A DNA stretch of 42,782 bases from a virus: IMG/VR virus record IMGVR_UViG_3300035670_000458, positions 1-42,782 of that record, one strand, 5' to 3'. Below the pieces are notes generated by a model. That model was not told the DNA's origin, ran no database searches, and worked only from the letters and a program-made list of their open reading frames with translations. Made by a program: the position numbers and the translations under genes. Below are positions 3,533 to 42,782 of this stretch, one piece after another. How positions within the stretch are numbered: the stretch's first letter is position 1; the number at the start of each line of letters is the position of its first letter.

Positions 3533-4930
3533 CTAATCGTGTATTCTTCCGTGAATCTCTAAATAATGCAGCTTGCTCGGTCCTGTACCCGATACTTTCA
3601 ACCTATTCCACTTAACCGCATTTAAAGTCGTTGAAGGTATCCTCACCCTCTGATTCTGTTCATTTGCACTCGTAGAAAACGTATACAAAGTAGCCCAATC
3701 ATTATTATCCACAGTTTCCGAATAACTTAGTATAAGCGTGCTGCCGCTTGGCAAGTCGACAATTGCATAAATATCCGATATAGTTTTTAGATTCTTAAGC
3801 GGTACAAAATTCATAACTCCCGTTTCATGGCTCCACGTAATAGCCGTAGAATCATCAGCAGTTCCTTGATTGAGCTTTTGCACAATGCCGCCCGTAGTTA
3901 TACCGTATAAATCTTGTCCTGCCGTAAAAAAGTTAACAAACCCGACATTCCAGACATACCACATCTTCAAATCTACATCATACTCAAGTGTTAGGTTATT
4001 TGTCGTTTGGGCTGCACCGTAGGGAAACGACAAATATATGTATTTCCCCCATTGCCCGGCACAAATATTTTGCTTATAGGTATAGTTAATATTTTCAAGA
4101 TAAGACTTAACTTTCTGACTGACATCAATAGGCAACCCTCCTGTAAATGCCAAAAACTTACCGTAATCAAGCCAATATAAAACTCCCGTTTGGCCGTGTA
4201 TAATCGTTGCTCTTTGACTGACATTCCCTACCGGTATAGGCTCACTCGGGTCAAAATCATCGGAGGTTTTCCCATAGACGATGTGCATACTCTGGTCACT
4301 CCATCCGATTGTCATATCATTGTAAACGGCTAAGGCCGTTTCGGTTCCAATCATACCATACAACCCGATTTGGTCTGCATCCCCTGTAGTCCAATTAGTT
4401 ATATCCCCAACATCACTGGCATATATAGTAGCATTAAGCAACGCAAACATACGATTATCCGAAGCCGCCATAAGCTTTGTCGCAGGCATAGCCGTAAGAT
4501 TAGCAGCCGCCGACCCGTTCCAAGATTTCTTTTCAGTCCCATTTGAGAATATCGTATACTTTGTACTCCCGTCGGTAAACTCAATAAACTCGGCTTTAGC
4601 ATTAGTCAATCCCGTAGCAACATTAACATAAGCACTCGTACCCGCATTCCAATACTTCCAAGTCGTACCGTCCACGACATGAAAAACACTTGCCCCCCTT
4701 GCCGTAGCACCGTTTACGGCTGTCAACGGAGTCCCTCCCGACCCGTACATTGCGACAGTCCCGGGCCTCGGAGCAAGCGCAGGATAGTACCTATTCGAAA
4801 CATTCAATTGAGAAACGCCTTCAGACAATTTAATCTCGAAGGCGTTTACCCCTGTGTTTACACCATCACCCAATTTCAGTATAACGGGTTTCATTTTATT
4901 CGGAAGCGACCTAACGCCCCAATAGGCCAT
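3533..4930 (-). CDS. Tail hub / packaged-DNA stabilization protein (P22 gp10-like)
   Basis: 465 aa, ATG at 4930 with GAGGGAGTG upstream. The sequence is beta-rich with repeated short W- and Y-containing blades (for example W-K-Y-W-N, N-W-T-T-G-D, Y-D-V-D-L-K-M-W-Y-V-W-N), consistent with a beta-propeller. The N-terminal L-G-D-G-V-N-T segment followed by an L-N-V-S-N-R-Y-Y pattern resembles podovirus proteins that cap the adaptor ring. It follows the adaptor-like gene by 17 bases, matching the gp4-gp10 order of P22. The role is inferred from order and fold-like features; no catalytic residues are expected. It would sit at the neck and hold packaged DNA in place. Confidence 0.65.
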   Translation of the reverse strand: MAYWGVRSLPNKMKPVILKLGDGVNTGVNAFEIKLSEGVSQLNVSNRYYPALAPRPGTVAMYGSGGTPLTAVNGATARGASVFHVVDGTTWKYWNAGTSAYVNVATGLTNAKAEFIEFTDGSTKYTIFSNGTEKKSWNGSAAANLTAMPATKLMAASDNRMFALLNATIYASDVGDITNWTTGDADQIGLYGMIGTETALAVYNDMTIGWSDQSMHIVYGKTSDDFDPSEPIPVGNVSQRATIIHGQTGVLYWLDYGKFLAFTGGLPIDVSQKVKSYLENINYTYKQNICAGQWGKYIYLSFPYGAAQTTNNLTLEYDVDLKMWYVWNVGFVNFFTAGQDLYGITTGGIVQKLNQGTADDSTAITWSHETGVMNFVPLKNLKTISDIYAIVDLPSGSTLILSYSETVDNNDWATLYTFSTSANEQNQRVRIPSTTLNAVKWNRLKVSGTGPSKLHYLEIHGRIHD

Positions 4931-4947
4931 ACAACATCACTCCCTCA

Positions 4948-5607
4948 TCAATATTCTTCAACTTGTCTTGCTTTAAGCGGCGCAGTATCAAACTTATCCT
5001 GCAAATCCTTTAAAGCGGTTGTCATTTCTCCATCATATTTCCGCTGCCAATAGTCCGCAATAGTAGCATCCGGATTATCCCCGATACTCGCACAATTCTG
5101 AATCAACCCGTATTTAAGCAAATTATGATACTTTGCATCCACTTCGGGAATATCCGTAGTAGCAGATATAGCCGTAATCTCACGATAGTAATACCACCTT
5201 ATTTCTAAATTAGTCGTCTGCAATGCCGCCCCGTCTTTAACAAGCATAACAGTATTGTTACCGATAAACGTATAATAACACCCGTCGTCAATCTCTCTGC
5301 TGTCATTAACCCCCACATACTCGAATGTATCCCAAACAGTATCATCATCAATGCTCCCTGTAGCCTCTTGAGAAACCATAATCTTAATAATCTGCTCGGG
5401 CTTGCAATCGCTCGGCAAGCTGTATGTAAGTTGGTCGTCTATCGAGTATGACGTATAATAATCATGTTCCCAACGCACTCTTAAAAGCTTATTATCAATT
5501 TCATCAAGTATCTGATTCAATATGATAATCTTATTTGCACTCGACACATCTGCCGTCCGTGGATACATTAATTCCGCATAACTTATAATTTGTGCAACCG
5601 TAGCCAA
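4948..5607 (-). CDS. Head-tail adaptor (P22 gp4 / T7 gp11-like)
   Basis: 219 aa, ATG at 5607. The N-terminal half is helical, with a segment around residues 20-40 (I-I-I-L-N-Q-I-L-D-E-I) followed by a W-E-H-D-Y-Y-T motif and a beta-region containing Y-S-L-P-S-D-C, a pattern typical of phage adaptor proteins that bind below the portal. A C-terminal helical segment contains Y-W-Q-R-K-Y-D. Size is close to P22 gp4 (166 aa) and T7 gp11 (196 aa). It is the first of the adaptor, hub, needle series in this operon. The assignment rests on pattern and position and could be confirmed by profile search. Confidence 0.65.
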   Translation of the reverse strand: MATVAQIISYAELMYPRTADVSSANKIIILNQILDEIDNKLLRVRWEHDYYTSYSIDDQLTYSLPSDCKPEQIIKIMVSQEATGSIDDDTVWDTFEYVGVNDSREIDDGCYYTFIGNNTVMLVKDGAALQTTNLEIRWYYYREITAISATTDIPEVDAKYHNLLKYGLIQNCASIGDNPDATIADYWQRKYDGEMTTALKDLQDKFDTAPLKARQVEEY

Positions 5608-24686: not shown

Positions 24687-25787
24687 TTAAAATGGTAACT
24701 TCCTTAATTCTTGAATCAAAGTGAACACTTGCGGCCACGCTGCAATAAGAACTCCATTAATAAACTGAGGATCATAATTGCTAATTGGCGTATTAAATGG
24801 ATAATATCTTTTATCTGCTACGGCTTTTTGAATTTCTTCGGGTAATACGTTATTAGCTTTCATTAAATCGGCCAAAGCTTTCGGAATCCCAACTAATACT
24901 TCCTCGTTTATTGGTGGATGCTCCTGCTCCTGCTCTTGCCCCTTCTCTTTCTCTTGTATGGACTCCGGCTTATCTAATGGCTTCGGTGCTGATTGATTTT
25001 GATTTGCAATATATTCAGTAACTACAGGCTGTAATGGAACAATAGATGAGTGTATGTTTTTTGGCTCATTAAGTGGTAATGATGGAAAACAATGAGCAAT
25101 TTGAGCAAATTCAAATGGTAATTCATCCGGCAGCCCATATCTGTTTTTTGCATCCCAGCAGGAGTGATGGGTAGTATACATTACCCTTTTACCTCCCTGG
25201 GCTTTGTTTTTCTTATCGTCTGTTTTGACGACATAAGTTTTGTAATTTGCAAAAATCACAGCATCTGCCCATTCTTTCAATAGTGGAGCTGTCTTTTTCA
25301 TCAGTTTTAATTCCCACCTGTCGTATGCTCCCATTTCATCCGGCTGTTCAAACTTCCGCATTTGTGCATGAGCCGTAAAAACTACATTAATTCCTAATGG
25401 CAATAAATCACTACAAAGATTTAGGAAGCGTCCAAATTCTTCTTCTAGGTAAACATAACCTTTTCCATACCCAAAATCCTCAATTCCATCTTTTTTTGAC
25501 TTTGAGCATATATGTTCGGCACAAAGTTTTTCTGCCCAATCGGCGGTATCAATAACCCATGTACGGCACTTATCAGGATTGTTTTTTAAATATTGAGCTT
25601 GTTGAATTAACATCTCCCAACTTGTTGGCTTCGAAAATCTTGCAACATCCAATTCGTCTGTACTACCTTCTACATCAGAAAATATAACTTGTGGAAACTT
25701 CGAAACAAAAGTCGACTTTCCTATTCCTTCCGGACCATATACAATAATTTTTTGTGCTCTTTTGTTTTTGCCTGTTGTTATTTCCAC
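24687..25787 (-). CDS. Sak4-like RecA-fold ATPase (AAA_24)
   Basis: 366 aa, GTG at 25787 sharing one base with the preceding stop. The Walker A is G-P-E-G-I-G-K-S-T at residues 18-26; a W-V-I-D-T-A-D-W Walker-B-like block lies near residue 80, and a V-V-F-T-A-H-A-Q-M-R block near 135. This matches phage Sak4-type single-strand-annealing/recombination ATPases. The C-terminal 110 residues are a low-complexity Pro/Gln/Glu linker plus a helical end. With the DUF669 gene and SMC-like ATPase it forms a recombination cassette. Confidence 0.85.
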   Translation of the reverse strand: MEITTGKNKRAQKIIVYGPEGIGKSTFVSKFPQVIFSDVEGSTDELDVARFSKPTSWEMLIQQAQYLKNNPDKCRTWVIDTADWAEKLCAEHICSKSKKDGIEDFGYGKGYVYLEEEFGRFLNLCSDLLPLGINVVFTAHAQMRKFEQPDEMGAYDRWELKLMKKTAPLLKEWADAVIFANYKTYVVKTDDKKNKAQGGKRVMYTTHHSCWDAKNRYGLPDELPFEFAQIAHCFPSLPLNEPKNIHSSIVPLQPVVTEYIANQNQSAPKPLDKPESIQEKEKGQEQEQEHPPINEEVLVGIPKALADLMKANNVLPEEIQKAVADKRYYPFNTPISNYDPQFINGVLIAAWPQVFTLIQELRKLPF

Positions 25788-29318: not shown

Positions 29319-29460
29319 TGGGTCTTTGCTCCTCTTCCCAGATTTTAAAATCTTGCGCTAAAAAATTTAAAAACTCTTCTGTGTTTGCTGTGCGATTTAA
29401 AATTTCAGTATTCACGGGCTTCATGGTTTTGCGGTCAAGTGTTATTCTCATGCATTTCAT
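29302..29460 (-). CDS. Small hypothetical protein, 52 aa
   Basis: ATG at 29460 behind GAGGTGAAAG; a second ATG three codons on (29451) is possible. It overlaps the end of the repeat-protein gene by 26 bases and the next gene by 17. The N-terminus (M-R-I-T-L-D-R-K-T) is beta-like, and the rest is helical and acidic with E-E-E-Q near the end. No family recognised. Support comes from the ribosome site and tight overlaps. Confidence 0.6.
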   Translation of the reverse strand: MKCMRITLDRKTMKPVNTEILNRTANTEEFLNFLAQDFKIWEEEQRPNEKAD

Positions 29461-30283
29461 TTTCTTTCACCTCACTACACACATACGTTCCCAATATAAT
29501 ATTTTTTGGCTCTTCTTTTGCTTTTATAGTTGCAAATTCTTTCTTTCTGCTGATTTTTATTTTTAGCCCGGCGTATATACCGTGATCTTCGCCAGCTTTG
29601 ATTCCCCAGCCAGCTTTGATTCCCCAGCCAGCTTCGATTCCCCAGCCAGCTTTGATTCCCTCGCCAGCTTTGATTCCCCGGCCAGCTTCGATTCCCTCGC
29701 CAGCTTTGATTCCCTCGCCAGCTTCGATTCCCCAGCCAGCTTTGATTCCCTCGCCAGCTTCGATTCCCCGGCCAGCTTCGATTCCCTCGCCAGCTTTGAT
29801 TCCCCAGCCAGCTTCGATTCCCTCGCCAGCTTTGATTCCCTCGCCAGCTTTGATTCCCCAGCCAGCTTTGATTCCCCAGCCAGCTTCGATTCCCCAGCCA
29901 GCTTTGATTCCCCAGCCAGCTTTGATTCCCCAGCCAGCTTCGATTCCCCAGCCAGCTTTGATTCCCTCGCCAGCTTCGATTCCCCGGCCAGCTTTGATTC
30001 CCCGGCCGCTGATCAAACATTTAGCTACTTTAATTGCACCTTTTACAAAAATTTTTCCTGCGAAGAAAATTGATGCTTCCGTAACAAGCTCGTCCACTTC
30101 CAAAACTGTGTTAGTCGAGCCTGCGTGTTGAAGTAACCACATTGCCCAGTTGTTTCTATTTTCGATTGCAAGCTTATCAAGGACTTTCTGATATTCCCCT
30201 CCTTCCGGAAAGGCATTACAAAACCATTTCAGTCCGCCATTACAAGCTTGTTTTTCTTTTAAAAATTCAATTGTAATTTTCAA
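29435..30283 (-). CDS. Hexapeptide tandem-repeat protein
   Basis: 282 aa from TTG at 30283 (K-I-T-I-E-F-L) with AAAGGAGAG six bases upstream; longer starts lack a site. Residues 1-75 are a small domain with W-F-C-N-A-F-P-E-G-G-E-Y and N-R-N-N-W-A-M-W-L-L-Q segments, seen in several phage proteins with similar repeats. Residues about 94-231 are 23 perfect hexads G-I-[K/E]-A-G-[W/E/R]. A basic, Lys-rich C-terminus follows. A six-residue period fits a beta-solenoid, perhaps a left-handed beta-helix. Function unknown. It lies between rha and the small early genes. Confidence 0.75.
   Translation of the reverse strand: MKITIEFLKEKQACNGGLKWFCNAFPEGGEYQKVLDKLAIENRNNWAMWLLQHAGSTNTVLEVDELVTEASIFFAGKIFVKGAIKVAKCLISGRGIKAGRGIEAGEGIKAGWGIEAGWGIKAGWGIKAGWGIEAGWGIKAGWGIKAGEGIKAGEGIEAGWGIKAGEGIEAGRGIEAGEGIKAGWGIEAGEGIKAGEGIEAGRGIKAGEGIKAGWGIEAGWGIKAGWGIKAGEDHGIYAGLKIKISRKKEFATIKAKEEPKNIILGTYVCSEVKENEMHENNT
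29591..30004. repeat. 18-bp tandem repeat, 23 units
   Basis: On the plus strand each unit is a triplet CCA, CTC or CCG, then GCCAGCTT, then T or C, then GATTCC. Only the triplet (Trp, Glu or Arg codon) and the single T/C (Lys or Glu codon) vary. The remaining bases are invariant, apart from TTC in place of CTC at the plus-strand edge. All three frames of both strands are mostly open here, giving false ORFs. Confidence 0.95.
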
Positions 30284-30658
30284 ATTAATCTCTCCTTTTT
30301 TTGTAAATTTGTTATAAAGTAAAGGCCTAAGAGCATACCACACTGATAAAAAATTACAATACTAATTTTAACTTCTTCGCCTCCTACCGCTCCACCCCTA
30401 CTCCTCACTTTCGGAATGTCTAACGTGCTTTCGCCAACTCGTTCATCGGAGACTCGGCACTGACTGCGTGCCTTATTTAGTTTTTCTTCTTGCAGCCTTG
30501 CCTTACAATTACTTTTAGTGCGTTGAATTACGGGGACTACTAAAATAACTAACAAAAACTGACTTCTGAAAAACTAAATGTTTGTTAATTGTGTCAATTG
30601 CTTTATTTGTAAATACGTGGTAAATTTACTGCAGGTCTTTGAAAAGTTAATAATTTAG
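30284..30658. other. Gene-free interval with a GC-richer core
   Basis: No credible gene. The core (about 30380-30540) is clearly GC-richer than its surroundings and contains a short GGCAC/GTGCC stem on the minus strand. A minus-strand TTGACA (30592-30597) lacks a convincing -10. A 91-codon open frame here starts at TTG without a ribosome site. A structured RNA or decayed insertion is possible. Confidence 0.5.
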
Positions 30659-31381
30659 TTAACAGGCAATTGCTTTGATGCTTAAGGTTCTGAATTTACT
30701 TGTGAGTTTTTCTTTGCGTGTTTCATAGTCAAGCCCTGCTTCGATAAGACCTATGTCAAGGCGTTGCAACTTGCGTATTGCTTCAATTTGAAAATTACTC
30801 AGGTACGGACGAATACTTGCGGTTTCTGCCGGGATGTTATTGACCTCTTTAAACTTCTTTGCCGGCATGCCGAGAACAATACGGTTTATCATGTCAATTT
30901 CGTTGCTAAAATGGTAAGGTCTTGGCTCTTCATGAGCAGCCTGTATAGCTTCTGTGAACTCAGGGAATTCAACTTTTGCCAAAGAAATGTTTTCGATAAA
31001 CTCTTCCATCTCGTTAAAACGATTGACATATGCAATTTTGAACTTTAAAGCTTTATCTCCTGTAAATCCCATAGCTAACAACGCAAATCCATCACGGCTC
31101 ATTTCATACATAGGTAATTTTCTTCCAGTGGAATCTTTGTAATTACTCAGCGTAAAATTCCGCTCAGTAAAATTTTTACTCACCCCAAAATTGGGGGCAG
31201 TGATTTTTTCTGAGGTGTCCTCATTTTTGAGGAGTCCTTCGATTATTTCTTGGATATCTCTTAAAACATGGTCATGCCTTTTTTCAAAAATCTCTGCTAC
31301 TTTTAAGCTGGTAACGATTGCCTTACCTTTTTTCTCAGTTACTCCGTAGATATCATTGAAGCTTGCTATATTGGTAGACAT
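30659..31381 (-). CDS. Rha-family phage regulatory protein (antirepressor type)
   Basis: 240 aa, ATG at 31381 behind GAGAGGAG. Residues about 20-120 fit the pRha domain: S-L-K-V-A-E-I-F-E-K-R-H-D-H-V-L-R-D-I, then Y-E-M-S-R-D-G-F-A-L-L-A-M-G-F-T-G and A-L-K-F-K-I-A-Y-V-N-R-F-N-E-M-E. The C-terminal 100 residues look like a further helical DNA-binding or oligomer domain. The family interferes with phage growth in some hosts and often acts as an antirepressor. It is the second gene of the early leftward operon after the Cro-like gene. Confidence 0.85.
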   Translation of the reverse strand: MSTNIASFNDIYGVTEKKGKAIVTSLKVAEIFEKRHDHVLRDIQEIIEGLLKNEDTSEKITAPNFGVSKNFTERNFTLSNYKDSTGRKLPMYEMSRDGFALLAMGFTGDKALKFKIAYVNRFNEMEEFIENISLAKVEFPEFTEAIQAAHEEPRPYHFSNEIDMINRIVLGMPAKKFKEVNNIPAETASIRPYLSNFQIEAIRKLQRLDIGLIEAGLDYETRKEKLTSKFRTLSIKAIAC

Positions 31382-31464: not shown

Positions 31465-31719
31465 TTAAGCTCCTTTCTGTTTTTTTGTTATCATTTTGTG
31501 AACTTCAGGATCAAAAAAAATATCGGTGACAGACACATTAAGAAATTTAGATATTAAATACATTTCATTTTCATTAAATCTTCCGTGTCCATTAATTTTT
31601 AAACTAAGATTGCTTTTTGGGGTTCCGATAGCTTCTGCAACTTCTGTCATAGTTTTACCGGCTAAAGCAATTGCTGCTTTTAATCTTAAATTAACCGGCC
31701 TTTTAGATTTAGATTTCAT
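31465..31719 (-). CDS. Cro-like XRE-family regulator
   Basis: 84 aa, ATG at 31719 behind GAGGTG. An XRE helix-turn-helix occupies residues about 10-65 (M-T-E-V-A-E-A-I-G-T-P-K-S-N-L-S). It is the first gene leftward from the switch and divergent from the CI-like gene, which is the Cro position. Its own promoter (31763-31791) overlaps two operator-like palindromes. Its last codons contain an exact 16-bp copy of the operator region sequence (31488-31503). Confidence 0.85.
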   Translation of the reverse strand: MKSKSKRPVNLRLKAAIALAGKTMTEVAEAIGTPKSNLSLKINGHGRFNENEMYLISKFLNVSVTDIFFDPEVHKMITKKQKGA

Positions 31720-33681: not shown

Positions 33682-33733
33682 CGACAAAATTTTCCGACAA
33701 ATTACGACAACAAGATTCGACAAATTACGACAA
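33682..33733. promoter_or_regulatory. CGACAA direct-repeat cluster upstream of the TPR gene
   Basis: CGACAA occurs at 33682, 33695, 33705, 33718 and 33728, with spacing 13, 10, 13, 10. A 16-bp block is thus duplicated exactly (33695-33710 and 33718-33733). It ends about 70 bases before the TPR start. Probably an array of protein-binding sites. Confidence 0.75.
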
Positions 33734-33803
33734 AACATTGCCGGAAACAACAGGTTGATTTTTTACAAACATTGTGTATTCTTGAAGTGAGGAGGTGTTT
33801 AAT

Positions 33804-36918: not shown

Positions 36919-39900
36919 TCATTTTTTCATTTTCTTCTGTATATACTCTTTGATGATGTATTCCCTTGCTGTTTCATGAGATTTTTTTACGATATCACTT
37001 AAAATTTTAGCCTTAACCTCAAACTCATTATCGGTACCCGACAATTTTTTATACTCATCGGATGCAATAACCTTACCCGCCGTCTCCGTTAATAACTTCC
37101 CGCTAAGCTTCTGATAATTAATATACTGCTGCGCATCAAGCGTTAACGGATACGTAGTCCCCTGATAAGTCCACCGTATAACATCATCAGCAACGGCAGG
37201 CAGCACGTTAACATTATTCGTTTGAGCGAACACCTTCGAGATTTCCGTTTGCACAGGATTTTTTTCAACATCTTTCAGGAATAACGGATTAATCATAACA
37301 TTCACAACATTATTAGCATCGTCATAACGTTTAATTTTATCCCCGTAGACATCGACTTGTACCGGCAATGTTCTGCTAAACCCGGGTAACTTGCTTATGT
37401 ATTGTTTTACTATCTGCTTAACAGGATTCGGATCATACACCTCTCTTACATATTCATCCGATATATCAGATAATTGCCGGATAAATGTCGGTTCAGTTTG
37501 CCCGATTGCACTCCTAAACAATTTCGTTAAAGCAGTATTAACACTACCGTTAGACCCTCCGACAGAAGCTATAATATCAACAGCATTACGCATGAATGAC
37601 AATCTTACAAAAGTATTTCCTGCAGCGTCAAACCCTGCTCCGATGGAAGCTAAAAACCCCGCCTTGTCTTTCGACTTTTTGTAAGCATCAACACCCATAG
37701 CCAGAACTCCACCTATCGGTTGTAAAGAATCAAAACTATACCATTTCCCGCCTATTTTAATCGAATAAGCTTGACTTGTGGCTTTTTCATGCTGCCTGAC
37801 CCGTTCCCGTTTATCCTCTCCACCTGCAGCCAGCCCTAAAGCCGCTAACACACCTCCAAGCAAAGCAATTCCCGTTCCGGTCAAACTCCTTGCAAGCCTG
37901 TCAACAAACACCTTTTGGTCAAACTCGCCCTCAGCGATTTTCTTTATTCTCCTGTTATTACTAAGCTTCCCGAGTTCGGACAAAGCTTTTCCCATGCCGA
38001 CCGGAGTATAATCCAACAACTTGTCAAACACATTAGCCGGAGTTTGAGTAAACGGAACAACTATATCACCGACAATACCCGCAGCATCTTTAATTTTTGT
38101 CAATCTCTTAGCAAGCTCGCTGTTATTCTGAAATACCCTATCCATAGCATACAACTTGGCAAGCATATCGACATCGGCATCAGGCTTATTCAATCCCCTA
38201 ATTTTCATCAATTCCTTAAGCCGCATATTATAAGCAGCTTCAAAAAATGGCCTGTCCCCAAACTTCAGAAAAGTTTTAACGGCATTATCCAAAAAATTTA
38301 AAGTGTCGTTGTCAAATACTCGCCCTTTCCTCAATTCGTATCTTCCGCCCGTAATACTCACAAGCTGATTTTTACCAAGGTCATATCTTTCATTCATGTT
38401 TGCAGTATTAACCAACTGAAATGTCTTCAGGTTTTTCACAATCTCTTTCCAAGACATCTGACGATTAAATTGTTTCTCAAAAGAATACTGCAGGTCCAAA
38501 ACACTTTCTTTAACCCCCGTCTTCAACCCCTCAGCCTGCCACTTAGCTTTTTCAACCGGATTAAACAAAGTAGTCCTTTCGCTCCCCCTTATTTTACTCA
38601 GAAAAGCATCAATCGGAGCTCCAAACAGATCCTTTAAATTTTCGGTTGAATTCAAAATAACGTTCCCTGCAATATTCCGAATATTAGTTTTAGGGTTTAA
38701 TAGCAGCCAAATTCTCTGAAGCCCCTTAATCTTATCCCTAACATTAGCAGGAACCTTATTTGACATGATCAGCTCAATCTTATCCGTAAGCATCCGATAT
38801 AAATAACTGTCCGGTTGTAGCAGATTTCTAGCTTCAACAGCTTTAATAATCGCCTCAATATCTTCATTTTCCAAAACAGGCAAATTATTTTTTTGCTTAA
38901 TAATATCCCTGATAGCCGGGATTGAATAAGCATCAAGATTAATCAATTCCATAACCTTATCAACCATTCGTTTCCTTACCTTAGGACTTGCAGCCTTGAG
39001 CATACCCTTTAATATTCGTTCTCTCGCTAAAGTTGCTTGCTCATCAAATACTTTTTTTGCAATCGTAGCCACCTTTTCAGCATCCGCCTGACTGATATTA
39101 ATCTTATCCTTAAGAGCTGCAATAAAAGCATCCCTCACAAATTCCGTCTTATTTTTCCCAAGTTTGACCAACTCATGTATTCTTATACCTGCAGTTCTTA
39201 TCAAGGTCCTTATCTTCGGGTCCAACTTATCATTAACCCGGTTAGAATAATTCTGATTAAGAAAAATATCCGCATTAACAACCGAGTCAATAAATTTAAC
39301 TGCATTAGCTTCCCTGTCAGCAGCAGAAGCAGGCCGCACCCTATACACCTGCTCCAAATAGTTTTCGGCATATTCTTTTTTCCACGTCTTGAACTTATTA
39401 TCCACATAGTTAGCCAAAACATTAATCTCATCATCCGTAAACTCTTGAAGCTTTGCCTCGGCCTTCAAAAACTCGACAATATTAACTCTTTGCTGTGCCC
39501 CCGTAGCATAATAATTTTTCACCATATCCGAAAGCTTATAATCAAGCTTCTTCATAACCTTCTTAATTGCAATATCCGCAGTTTTTTCGGAAAATGGCGG
39601 CTTAGTCCCCTTACCAAAATACTCTTCCAAAATATCAAGAGCGAAAGTATCATCCGAATAAAATTCCCTAACTATCTTCTTTGCCTCCTGCCAAACCTTA
39701 TCAGACACATCTTTATTTTTTACCGCATCAAGAAACTCTTGGATCTTATCAGGAGGTATCTTTTTAGGAATGTCCTTCTCATCAACTTGTTCCCTAAACT
39801 TAGCATACAATTCATTGACCATCTGCATTACAACATCTTTTTCTTTTGCTTTTGGGCCTTTCAAAGTCTTCTTAATTTTTTCAGCAAGCAGCTCAGCAGG

Positions 39901-42782
39901 ATCGGCTTCTTCATCCTCTTCTACTTCTTCTAAATTTTCGTCAACTTCTTCATCCGTGGCAGCATCGTTGGCTTCAGATTGATTCCCGGTTTTTTTACTC
40001 GAAGTCTTTCTTTTTTTCTTTTCTCTATTTTCTTGAGTCTCTTCTTCCTTCTTAATCTCATCAACCGTCTCATCGGCCGCCTTTTTATCGGTTTCCTCAA
40101 GCACCTTCTCGACGACTTTAGCCTCATTGTCGATTTCTTCAATCATCTTTGGATGAGCTTTCTTAGTTTCCTCTTCAACATCATTAACAATTTTTTGAGC
40201 CTCAATAATAATCTGCTCAGGCGACCTCGAATACTTTGCTAAAGCTTGAATAGCTCTTCCCATGTCAGTAAAATTATCCCTTCGAATTATTGATGTCCAT
40301 TCAATCATTTTAGAATAATCGCCTGTTTTCCTGCCTTCCTGCTTATAAACTTCCAGTATACCCATAGCAACGTCAGTATCGACGCCCGTTTTAATACCAT
40401 TTTTCCTGATATTCTCAACTTCCCCGTCAAAATCTTTAGAAAGTCTTTTTACAGCTTCCGTATAGCTTTTCTCTTCCGAAACCCTGTCATACACATAATC
40501 TTCGGCATTAAACATTTTCTTTTCTTCATCCGTCAAATCCTTATGATTCTGCAAAGTATTCTCATAAAACTTAGATATAGCCTTAAGCCTGTTAAGTTTC
40601 TTCTCAGCCTCCGCAAAAAGCTGCAGATTGACCTTTATACCTTTACGCTTTTTATCCCTCATAAAAGACACCATATCCTCCAGCTCATCAATGGTGTTTG
40701 GCAGTTGATCACGACTTTTAATATTAGTAAATTTTGTTATATTGGAGTAAAATTTTTGAGCAACGAGCCTAAATTTATTTACTGTATCATCGTCTAACAC
40801 TTGATTTATTTCTATTGAATTATCAAAGTTTTTAATAGCAAGCATCATATTTGCAAACTCATTTGCTAATAACTCATCAACAACCGTAATGTCTGTTTCT
40901 TTAAGATATACTTTATAATCTTCATCTTCAAACGATTTTACAAAATCATCTTTAGCCTTTAAAAACTCGGGAGTTTTGATAAAATCATTATAAAAATAAT
41001 CAAAGGTATCAAAAAACAATTCCTTATTTGTTTTTCTCAAATAATGGAATGTTTCATGGTGATAAGCTGTGGTTTGGCCGTATTCAGTTTTATTCCCGAT
41101 AAATATTTCAAAAGGAGCTTCCGAAGATGTCAAAGCTGAAATATTAAAGCCTGTATTGTCAAAAAAGTTTACAGGAGCTCCGACAGTTCTTTCCGAATCT
41201 TCTCTAATTCTTCTTTCGTCGACCGTTCTCTCATCTCTTGTAGAGATTTTTCTAATTGCGGCTTCTTCTTCATAAGCTCTTCGTTTGAAAATTTCCTTTT
41301 TGTTTCGGCTGATTCTTCCGGCGTTTGTGGTCTCAAGCCCTGATTCTTGAATAACATTTTCATTCACCTCACCACTCGAAGTTTTTTCAACATTACTATT
41401 ATCGGACAAATTACCGGCTTTTTCAATGGCATTATTTGACTTATCATAAATAATCGAAACCTTAACATCCGTAGCCTGAGATTTACCTCCTATTTTTTCA
41501 ACTTTCAGTATTCTCGTAACATCATTAATTGAAGATGGTGTTTTGGTCTTATAAAAACTTTTGGTCCTGTCAGTGCCTTCTTCGACTGTTCTTTCAAAAG
41601 GATTCTCAGGATTATTTTGTACTTCGATGATATACCCGACATCAGATTTACTTTTAAACAGATAAGTTTTAGCTATTTCACGGCCAAACCATGCCGGCAT
41701 TTTACTTTTTGTTTTTACGACTCCCGAATCAAATATATCTTGGATAGCAGCAAAATCTTTCACGGCTCTGTAATAGTGGCCATCCTTTTTTTCGCCCAAT
41801 TGGTCCATAACAGGGCTATAACTCGAAGACAGATTAATCGTTTTTGTATAGCTTTTACCTTCAGTTTGGGCCTTATTTATTTGAGATTCAGGTGTATTTT
41901 GCGTTTGAGCAAGTTGGCCTTCTTGTACTTGAGACAAATTTAAAGGCGATTCTGTAACAAAATTACCTATTTTATTAATCTCATTTTGATTATTGCTAAC
42001 AATATTCCCCGTTTCAGATAATGCAGATTCATTTGGCACAGTGTTTACAATCATATTCCCAACATCACGAAATTGACTTATATCCTGCATTTGCGGTTGT
42101 TGTGGTTGTATTGTTTGTTGTTCTTGTTGTGTTTGCAACGGTGATTCCGTAATAACTTTAGCCATCCCGCTTTTACCCTGCAAAGCTTCTTTATACGGGA
42201 AAACATTACTTAAACTATTTTCTAATTCCATAACATTTAAGGGTGACTCCTGAATACCCCCGCTAATATTTTCTTGTGCATTCCCCAATATACTTTCCTG
42301 AATACCCCCCTGCTGTTGCTCTTGATTATTAACCTTAGGTATCTCATTTTTTAAATTTTTCAGCAACTCATTATACTGCCCGAAAGTAACTGATTCAGGG
42401 TTTTGAGCATATTCCAATGCCAATTGAAAAGACTCGGTTTGTTCCGGCATATTCAACCCGACTTTAAGGTCCTCATATAAATTATTTTCCATTTCCTGCT
42501 GAACTTGCTTCGATGCCTCATATTGTGAAGGTAATCCCGCTCCCCCCATAGCGACACCCGCCAAACCTCCGACTAATCCGCTGTAAAGAATTTGTTTTGG
42601 GTCGATAACGCCGCCTTCTCCAAACCATTTCCGATTTGTGTCAGCAATAAGCTTATCTGCTAATCCTGAAATCGGCTCCATAAGCATTTCTTCAAGAGCT
42701 TCCTGCCCGCCCACATTCAAAAGATTTTTTAACATATTCCCGATATTTTTTTTCCCCGCCAAGGTAAAAGTTTTAATAATAT
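36919..42782 (-). CDS. Giant polyvalent virion protein, main part, with zincin-like HExxH motif (runs off window end)
   Basis: The frame is open from 42782 to the stop at 36919, about 1,953 codons. TTG at 42762 is probably internal; 1-849 supplies the N-terminus. Numbering from 42762: Gln-rich linker with four E-S-P/I-L motifs (about 155-280); a small alpha/beta domain opening Y-Y-R-A-V (about 325-430), toxin- or ADP-ribosyltransferase-like; H-E-T-F-H at 569-573, a zincin-type metallopeptidase motif; N-L-Q-L-F-A-E at 712-718; acidic-basic linker (about 870-975); helical regions; and a C-terminal module (about 1340-1947) like the LPD38-type domains of phage polyvalent proteins, with a hydrophobic helix near 1625. 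Inferred to be packaged and ejected with DNA. Confidence 0.85.
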   Translation of the reverse strand, partial: IIKTFTLAGKKNIGNMLKNLLNVGGQEALEEMLMEPISGLADKLIADTNRKWFGEGGVIDPKQILYSGLVGGLAGVAMGGAGLPSQYEASKQVQQEMENNLYEDLKVGLNMPEQTESFQLALEYAQNPESVTFGQYNELLKNLKNEIPKVNNQEQQQGGIQESILGNAQENISGGIQESPLNVMELENSLSNVFPYKEALQGKSGMAKVITESPLQTQQEQQTIQPQQPQMQDISQFRDVGNMIVNTVPNESALSETGNIVSNNQNEINKIGNFVTESPLNLSQVQEGQLAQTQNTPESQINKAQTEGKSYTKTINLSSSYSPVMDQLGEKKDGHYYRAVKDFAAIQDIFDSGVVKTKSKMPAWFGREIAKTYLFKSKSDVGYIIEVQNNPENPFERTVEEGTDRTKSFYKTKTPSSINDVTRILKVEKIGGKSQATDVKVSIIYDKSNNAIEKAGNLSDNSNVEKTSSGEVNENVIQESGLETTNAGRISRNKKEIFKRRAYEEEAAIRKISTRDERTVDERRIREDSERTVGAPVNFFDNTGFNISALTSSEAPFEIFIGNKTEYGQTTAYHHETFHYLRKTNKELFFDTFDYFYNDFIKTPEFLKAKDDFVKSFEDEDYKVYLKETDITVVDELLANEFANMMLAIKNFDNSIEINQVLDDDTVNKFRLVAQKFYSNITKFTNIKSRDQLPNTIDELEDMVSFMRDKKRKGIKVNLQLFAEAEKKLNRLKAISKFYENTLQNHKDLTDEEKKMFNAEDYVYDRVSEEKSYTEAVKRLSKDFDGEVENIRKNGIKTGVDTDVAMGILEVYKQEGRKTGDYSKMIEWTSIIRRDNFTDMGRAIQALAKYSRSPEQIIIEAQKIVNDVEEETKKAHPKMIEEIDNEAKVVEKVLEETDKKAADETVDEIKKEEETQENREKKKRKTSSKKTGNQSEANDAATDEEVDENLEEVEEDEEADPAELLAEKIKKTLKGPKAKEKDVVMQMVNELYAKFREQVDEKDIPKKIPPDKIQEFLDAVKNKDVSDKVWQEAKKIVREFYSDDTFALDILEEYFGKGTKPPFSEKTADIAIKKVMKKLDYKLSDMVKNYYATGAQQRVNIVEFLKAEAKLQEFTDDEINVLANYVDNKFKTWKKEYAENYLEQVYRVRPASAADREANAVKFIDSVVNADIFLNQNYSNRVNDKLDPKIRTLIRTAGIRIHELVKLGKNKTEFVRDAFIAALKDKINISQADAEKVATIAKKVFDEQATLARERILKGMLKAASPKVRKRMVDKVMELINLDAYSIPAIRDIIKQKNNLPVLENEDIEAIIKAVEARNLLQPDSYLYRMLTDKIELIMSNKVPANVRDKIKGLQRIWLLLNPKTNIRNIAGNVILNSTENLKDLFGAPIDAFLSKIRGSERTTLFNPVEKAKWQAEGLKTGVKESVLDLQYSFEKQFNRQMSWKEIVKNLKTFQLVNTANMNERYDLGKNQLVSITGGRYELRKGRVFDNDTLNFLDNAVKTFLKFGDRPFFEAAYNMRLKELMKIRGLNKPDADVDMLAKLYAMDRVFQNNSELAKRLTKIKDAAGIVGDIVVPFTQTPANVFDKLLDYTPVGMGKALSELGKLSNNRRIKKIAEGEFDQKVFVDRLARSLTGTGIALLGGVLAALGLAAGGEDKRERVRQHEKATSQAYSIKIGGKWYSFDSLQPIGGVLAMGVDAYKKSKDKAGFLASIGAGFDAAGNTFVRLSFMRNAVDIIASVGGSNGSVNTALTKLFRSAIGQTEPTFIRQLSDISDEYVREVYDPNPVKQIVKQYISKLPGFSRTLPVQVDVYGDKIKRYDDANNVVNVMINPLFLKDVEKNPVQTEISKVFAQTNNVNVLPAVADDVIRWTYQGTTYPLTLDAQQYINYQKLSGKLLTETAGKVIASDEYKKLSGTDNEFEVKAKILSDIVKKSHETAREYIIKEYIQKKMKK

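Follow-up and report, generated by a model that had tools for sequence, protein, structure and literature searches.

The virus record IMGVR_UViG_3300035670_000458 of IMG/VR, which was analysed over its full length of 42,782 nucleotides (hereafter termed the window), contains a gene in which a short coding unit is repeated many times, with two amino acid positions varying in a seemingly shuffled order and with hardly any silent change. We asked what kind of protein is encoded by this locus, how its units could be kept nearly identical at the level of DNA while remaining diverse in two codons and what this diversity might serve. An initial annotation, made from the sequence itself, had proposed fast recombination or slippage among variant units, combined with selection for charge and aromatic diversity on one face of a solenoid.

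The array gene and its position in the phage genome

The array consists of 23 contiguous, in-frame units of 18 bp encoding the hexapeptide G-I-x-A-G-y. Residue x is Lys in 14 and Glu in nine units, and y is Trp in 11, Glu in nine and Arg in three, in exact agreement with the initial annotation, whose limits of 29591-30004 were displaced by one codon (Table 1). The unit is throughout encoded by GGA ATC [A/G]AA GCT GGC [TGG/GAG/CGG], and the single silent edge change that had been noted was recovered as GAA in place of GAG in the last unit, with none elsewhere in the window array. A Tandem Repeats Finder (TRF) score of 631 for 23.2 copies with 89% matches demonstrates that the array is not a product of chance; its GC content is 0.59 compared to 0.39 in the window. 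As judged by comparison with related sequences, the reading frame of the gene is the real one, since the GI[KE]AGy peptide is maintained in relatives that use other silent codons and since the TTG start, which is preceded by GGAGAG, corresponds to the start of these relatives. Other open frames across the array were rejected as by-products of the 18-bp period.

Table 1. Positions of the array gene, its parts and selected neighbouring genes in the window.
Feature	Position	Strand	Evidence and remarks
Array gene	29435..30283	minus	282 codons and stop; TTG start at 30283 corresponds to the MKIT/MQIT start of relatives
Likely ribosome-binding site GGAGAG	30290..30295	minus	Sequence; upstream of the TTG start of the array gene
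N-terminal helical head, YdhT type, residues 1-55	30119..30283	minus	AlphaFold pLDDT >90; weak NCBIfam YdhT match; hhalign
Solenoid lead-in strands, residues 56-94	30002..30118	minus	Predicted strands E60-92; conserved FFAG motif
23-unit hexapeptide array GI[KE]AG[WER], residues 95-232	29588..30001	minus	TRF; unit reading; AlphaFold model
C-terminal cap GIYAGLKIKIS...KNIILGTY, residues 233-282	29438..29587	minus	Conserved with relatives; low model confidence
Cro-like HTH protein	31465..31719	minus	PF01381, E 1.6e-6
Phage regulatory protein Rha	30659..31381	minus	PF09669, E 1.8e-32; directly upstream of the array gene except for one short ORF
AAA_24 ATPase	24687..25787	minus	PF13479, E 1.8e-64; downstream in the early region

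Searches with the encoded protein returned no match in Pfam (at E-values up to 10) or in PHROG, and a weak match of the head to YdhT together with one compositional match in NCBIfam. Family databases probably miss these proteins because their repeats are of low complexity. PADLOC found nothing. The structures 9e5c and 5vj4 of the PDB, which emerged from a sequence search with the family alignment, were rejected as their alignments reflect low-complexity A/E/G composition. We also rejected a relationship to the FapA beta-solenoid (PF03961), which matches three of 13 relatives with a best E-value of 0.0029 and does not match the window protein, and an assignment as collagen-like, since Gly does not recur at every third residue and is instead found at positions 1 and 5 of a period of six.

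The virus is a temperate phage whose array gene is located beside the lysis-lysogeny switch. In its early region, a cro-like HTH gene is followed by Rha, the array gene and then by genes for AAA_23, AAA_24, helicase, primase and RusA. The AAA_24 protein is by inference a Sak4-like recombination ATPase. Related genes occupy comparable positions, directly after an antirepressor in phiKX1, directly after the N antiterminator in Edwardsiella phage GF-2 and downstream of PD-DExK, AAA and RusA genes in phage ctKR88, and a sample of 80 neighbouring proteins includes RecT, ERF, AAA_24, PD-DExK, helicases, Rha and KilAC domains. This early-region context makes an intracellular early role likely and a role as tail or receptor protein unlikely. 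About three units into the array, the gene of ctKR88 (MW202524, L242:7001-7412) appears to be truncated or to carry a frameshift.

Elsewhere in the window, a 30-bp tandem repeat coding for GNTGNTGVGT-like units is found at 2349-2451 within the ORF 871-2904 and a tandem repeat of about 23 bp at 33682-33739. Very long ORFs on the minus strand run off both ends of the record (36919-42780 with 1953 residues and 1-849 with 283 residues); they may represent parts of a single giant gene, with the genome being circularly permuted, and their frames do not join exactly.

Uniform silent codons, polymorphic replacement sites and array turnover

In a scan of viral contigs at the protein level, 137 stretches were confirmed, of which 79 loci were kept, and a degenerate DNA pattern of three units detected at least 119 viral stretches and 44 in genomes of bacteria and archaea from many phyla, among them Halegenticoccus and a Thaumarchaeota MAG. 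After removal of duplicates, the matches listed comprised 181 distinct arrays, with 2,482 units in total, which derive from contigs of phages as well as from genomes of bacteria or archaea. The design of the window array is thus found, with another shuffling of its units, in well over a hundred further phages and prophages. Most of these arrays originate from short-read metagenome contigs, many of which stop inside the array. Arrays contain between 4 and 37 units with no preference modulo 3, and are preceded by two kinds of N-terminal regions, either a YdhT-type head as in the window or a short 'FDGHIEIEADLGWVRF' lead; a scan of viral contigs with the head as sole query provided no confirmed relative. 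A limited literature search, encompassing few subscription papers, found no description of the peptides, of DUF7666 or of phage arrays with high internal conservation.

Within each array, there is nearly one silent codon per position, and phages differ in their choice of this codon. The first base of the x codon, which distinguishes Lys from Glu, is polymorphic in 128 of 134 arrays, compared to eight of 134 for the silent third base. In arrays of at least eight units, additional residues were counted when they occurred two or more times; there are 142 of them at x and 281 at y, as opposed to four and two additional silent codons, respectively, in these two codons. The scarcity of silent differences that characterizes the window array is thus equally found within the arrays of its relatives, and both comparisons support the proposed selection for diversity at x and y. 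Hence, the array is homogenised for silent codons within each phage, whereas x and y are kept polymorphic in a near-random order. Such homogenisation implies that units were repeatedly copied from one another. In some phages, variation is also found elsewhere, with the first Gly replaced by Ser, Asp or Arg and the second by Asp, and structure rather than a mutator therefore appears to determine where variation occurs. An exceptional array of Paraburkholderia antibiotica (L212/L296) carries Glu at x in every matched unit, with y being mostly Gly, Arg or Glu.

The order of units is close to random, and the excess of repeated words is weak (0.42 with a standard error of 0.07). We compared these properties with simulations, which are toy models serving as illustrations and not as fits. 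Neutral concerted evolution leads to similar values for replacement and silent polymorphism, and block duplication and deletion alone produce too many repeated words, with an excess of about 1.3. The closest simulations are those in which uniform arrays are selected against and short tracts are exchanged; simulated silent polymorphism (0.12-0.20) is somewhat above the observed values (0.06-0.09). Of the processes initially invoked, fast recombination among variant units is retained, whereas slippage between adjacent units alone does not fit, since there is no autocorrelation at lags 1 and 2 and the excess of repeated words is only weak. Short-tract exchange together with block deletion fit better.

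A direct view of array turnover is provided by contigs whose flanking regions are 96.5-100% identical. As read from their unit strings, their arrays differ by block deletions, encompassing nine units each in the pairs L239/L222 and L054/L170, ten units in L116/L119 and four units plus one replacement in L048/L070, in comparisons of flanks that cover up to 400 bases, often on one side, with many contigs ending in the array. The values of four and ten led us to reject the idea that deletions occur in multiples of three units. Relatives with 88-92% identity in their flanks have no common unit order, so that the order is not fixed between relatives and change in the array outpaces that in its flanks. 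Block duplications can be recognized in a few arrays (L049, L216, L002), and identical arrays recur across different samples (L004-L006, L046/L047), which argues against pure assembly noise. A possible laboratory counterpart is found in an evolution experiment with Serratia symbiotica, where one of 21 mutations is a 54-bp deletion in 'ydhT_1' at position 782,372 (PMC12505973, Table 2). This gene is located inside a mitomycin-inducible prophage at about 772,000-819,000, and repeats were not discussed by the authors (PMC12505973). As 54 bp correspond to two 27-bp or three 18-bp units, the deletion fits the observed turnover.

A predicted solenoid and its YdhT-type head

In the order of units, a signal is found at x, where identity at lag 3 is depleted to 0.472 compared to 0.521 expected from shuffling of units within arrays (z -3.4, 72 arrays), and to 0.459 compared to 0.523 (z -3.7) in a second set of 109 arrays. 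Both sets are disjoint, with no common five-unit words, and lag 3 was tested in the second set after all lags had been scanned in the first. Within-array shuffling did not reveal any signal for x at lags 1, 2 and 4-12. The effect is modest (0.47 compared to 0.52), with identity being below expectation in 70 of 93 arrays. This self-avoidance of Lys and Glu is expected from Lys-Glu ladders if unit i stacks on unit i+3, with 18 residues per turn, and it fits a beta-solenoid with three hexapeptides per turn. The geometric part of our interpretation, a probable stacking at a distance of three units, is supported by this signal and by weak fold matches to LpxD and GlmU (see below), and the avoidance of like charges provides a readable geometric rule.

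The AlphaFold model of the window protein shows a four-helix head with pLDDT >90, followed by an array with strands in 'GIxA' and turns in 'Gy' at every six residues. The pLDDT is 73-87 through most of the array and confidence drops below 50 near its end and over the C-cap. The model lends support to the solenoid that had been suggested and disagrees with the placement of x and y on one face, as x is located on a strand and y at a turn. It agrees with the independently predicted phage relative A0A6J5SK54 (rmsd of 2.5 over 183 columns), and for the short relative L051, confidence over the array is low and no useful fold match was obtained. Foldseek searches with the window model identified weak local matches to LpxD, GlmU and LpxA (E above 0.01, TM about 0.2). 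Like these left-handed beta-helix proteins, the array is predicted to have six-residue strands and probably three of them per turn. The window protein differs from them in not being an acyltransferase and in its sequence, since the unit I-[KE]-A-G-y-G, with y being mostly Trp or Glu, departs from the classic motif [LIV]-[GAED]-x2-[STAV]-x and has no hexapeptide match in Pfam.

The head of the window protein matches the NCBIfam family YdhT (NF007410) with an E-value of 3.6e-4 over residues 23-74 of the longer ORF, at 20.2 bits compared to an equivalog cut-off of 300 bits. A comparison of window-type heads with those of the YdhT/nonapeptide type by hhalign (probability 99.5, E 5.5e-23) supports homology to the head of E. 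coli YdhT. The same architecture is found in ORF-55 of GF-2, an equally early gene annotated as collagen-like, where a YdhT-type head is followed by the nonapeptide array G[DS/DR/ND/YY]A[Q/R]IGSS, which lacks a Gly at every third residue despite its Pfam collagen score. Nonapeptide arrays occur in about 40 viral loci (L247-L288; L246:3001-4047), on YdhT or DUF7666 heads (PF24703, E 4.3e-33). Their 27-bp unit G[DNY][SYDG]A[QRK]IGSS resembles the hexapeptide unit in its homogeneous scaffold codons, with variation being confined to three codons, and differs in its length and in the absence of a lag signal in 31 arrays. In these 31 arrays with 426 units, we counted 42, 38 and 31 replacement variants at the three variable codons and seven silent variants over the whole unit.

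A different situation is found in chromosomal copies. E. coli ydhT (UMNK88, L291:2802-3614), which is present at ≥95% identity in 5,388 of 5,426 complete E. coli genomes, encodes a homologous head that is, as in the window protein, followed by a repeat region. As opposed to the homogeneous 18-bp array of the window, latter is a fixed, degenerate array of the nonapeptide type. No match at the DNA level was found between GF-2 and E. coli genomes. Similarly, the large replicon pMTS1 of Cupriavidus sp. P-10 (L243, ORF about 4861-5600) encodes a degenerate hexapeptide solenoid that is combined with the same head and C-cap, and this gene is also found in four other Cupriavidus records. These degenerate arrays suggest that chromosomal copies have drifted unit by unit, whereas phage copies stay uniform and shuffled. 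The core E. coli gene ydhT resembles a member of the phage array family that has degenerated and become frozen, which would link a gene of unassigned function to phage early genes.

Explanations for the mixed surface

Our results suggest that the gene product would be an early-expressed intracellular phage protein composed of a YdhT-type helical head, a hexapeptide beta-solenoid rod and a C-cap. Homologous exchange among the 18-bp repeats would add, delete and reshuffle units, probably with help from phage recombination functions, and arrays that have turned uniform would be removed by selection. At x, this selection may be partly structural, with Lys and Glu stacked three units apart. For y and the variable sites of the nonapeptide (Tyr/Asp/Asn, Ser/Tyr and Gln/Arg/Lys), the simplest reading would be a diversified binding surface, which might be directed early in infection towards an intracellular partner that varies, for example a protein of host defence or regulation. 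Binding of variable partners is suggested by the combination of diversified exposed residues, an early rod and two unrelated repeats, which resembles fungal NLR sensors. We regard the conjunction of a solenoid, concerted evolution and selection for a mixed surface as likely, and the full account, in which these processes act on an early intracellular binding rod, as the best overall explanation and reasonably probable; the role as diversified binding surface, taken by itself, is a tentative proposal.

Almost as likely as binding to variable partners is a purely structural need, where the solenoid requires mixed charges and turns, any mixed order would work and the rod would act as spacer or scaffold without specific partner. 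The avoidance of identical x residues at a distance of three units is what a stacking rule gives, and this reading explains the x rule well. As only x obeys this rule, with Lys opposite to Glu three units away, part of its diversity can be a folding requirement. The otherwise random order, the independence of x and y within a unit (z -0.12) and array lengths without preference for multiples of three are equally in line with such a need. However, sets of three or four residues at y, which differ between phages, exceed what mixing requires, the nonapeptide repeat with its Tyr, Asp, Asn and Ser residues shows the same pattern without lag signal, and the degenerate chromosomal versions indicate that near-identical units are dispensable for a rod.

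Two processes without selection for diversity were also weighed. Programmed hypermutation of the x and y codons, by a diversity-generating retroelement or a local mutator, would account for the near-even proportion of Lys and Glu and for the concentration of variation in the same codons in every phage, and a toy simulation in which x and y are hypermutable and selection is absent likewise produces much polymorphism at x and little at silent sites. Diversity-generating retroelements likewise cause targeted-looking variability at few codons, which is here placed inside a tandem array. Yet no reverse transcriptase (PF00078) was found in 28 viral records, of which the window is one and some are fragments, in a search that was positive in control genomes. 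Moreover, y codons vary at several bases and not only at adenines, with silent third-base variants of y being nearly absent, the simulated excess of repeated words is too high and the lag-3 rule is left unexplained. We thus consider hypermutation as very improbable. A neutral minisatellite, in which leftover variants would persist after recent expansion by slippage, deserves next to no credence. Tandem repeats of 18 bp are expected to expand and contract, and block duplications are seen in three arrays, but replacement polymorphism is sixteen times as frequent as silent polymorphism in the x codon of the 134 arrays, where neutral simulations give similar values for both, and there is no similarity at lag 1. 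This explanation is already refuted by the ratio of 128 to 8, unless silent changes are strongly selected against.

With respect to the preferred account of concerted evolution and selection for a mixed surface, the data point to a widespread family of hypervariable early proteins in phages that has apparently not been described. If the reading as binding surface is true, the partner of the rod would be a rapidly changing factor of the host or of a phage. In a far-reaching version, which we regard as doubtful, the family would constitute a combinatorial early rod in temperate phages from many phyla of bacteria and possibly also in archaeal viruses, with at least two unrelated repeats on common heads, whose surface code is recombined and held diverse by selection. 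It would serve in recognition or counter-recognition inside the cell independently of retroelements, and E. coli YdhT would be its frozen and domesticated descendant.

The initial annotation knew of no described mechanism for this family. While the family itself appears undescribed, its mode of evolution has a precedent in fungal NLR sensors carrying repeats of high internal conservation, such as the WD40 repeats of the HNWD family including het-d and het-e of Podospora (PMC12222747). These share with the phage arrays near-identical units, concerted evolution, gain and loss of units, few hypervariable sites with diversifying selection and a high variability among alleles (PMC12222747). They differ in forming a WD40 propeller within an immune receptor with the known target HET-C, compared to a six-residue solenoid unit in an early protein, and a NACHT or NB-ARC domain was not detected by Pfam in the window protein. 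Both the type of fold and the mode of evolution are thus precedented, whereas their combination, the location in the phage early region and the breadth of the distribution appear to be new. The features defining high internal conservation are all found in the phage arrays: repeats with more than 80% identity (89% matches in the window), concerted evolution with gain and loss of units, as seen in uniform silent codons and block deletions, and few hypervariable sites with an excess of replacements, as seen in the x codon. Phages thus evolve these proteins in a way that is known from allorecognition receptors of fungi.
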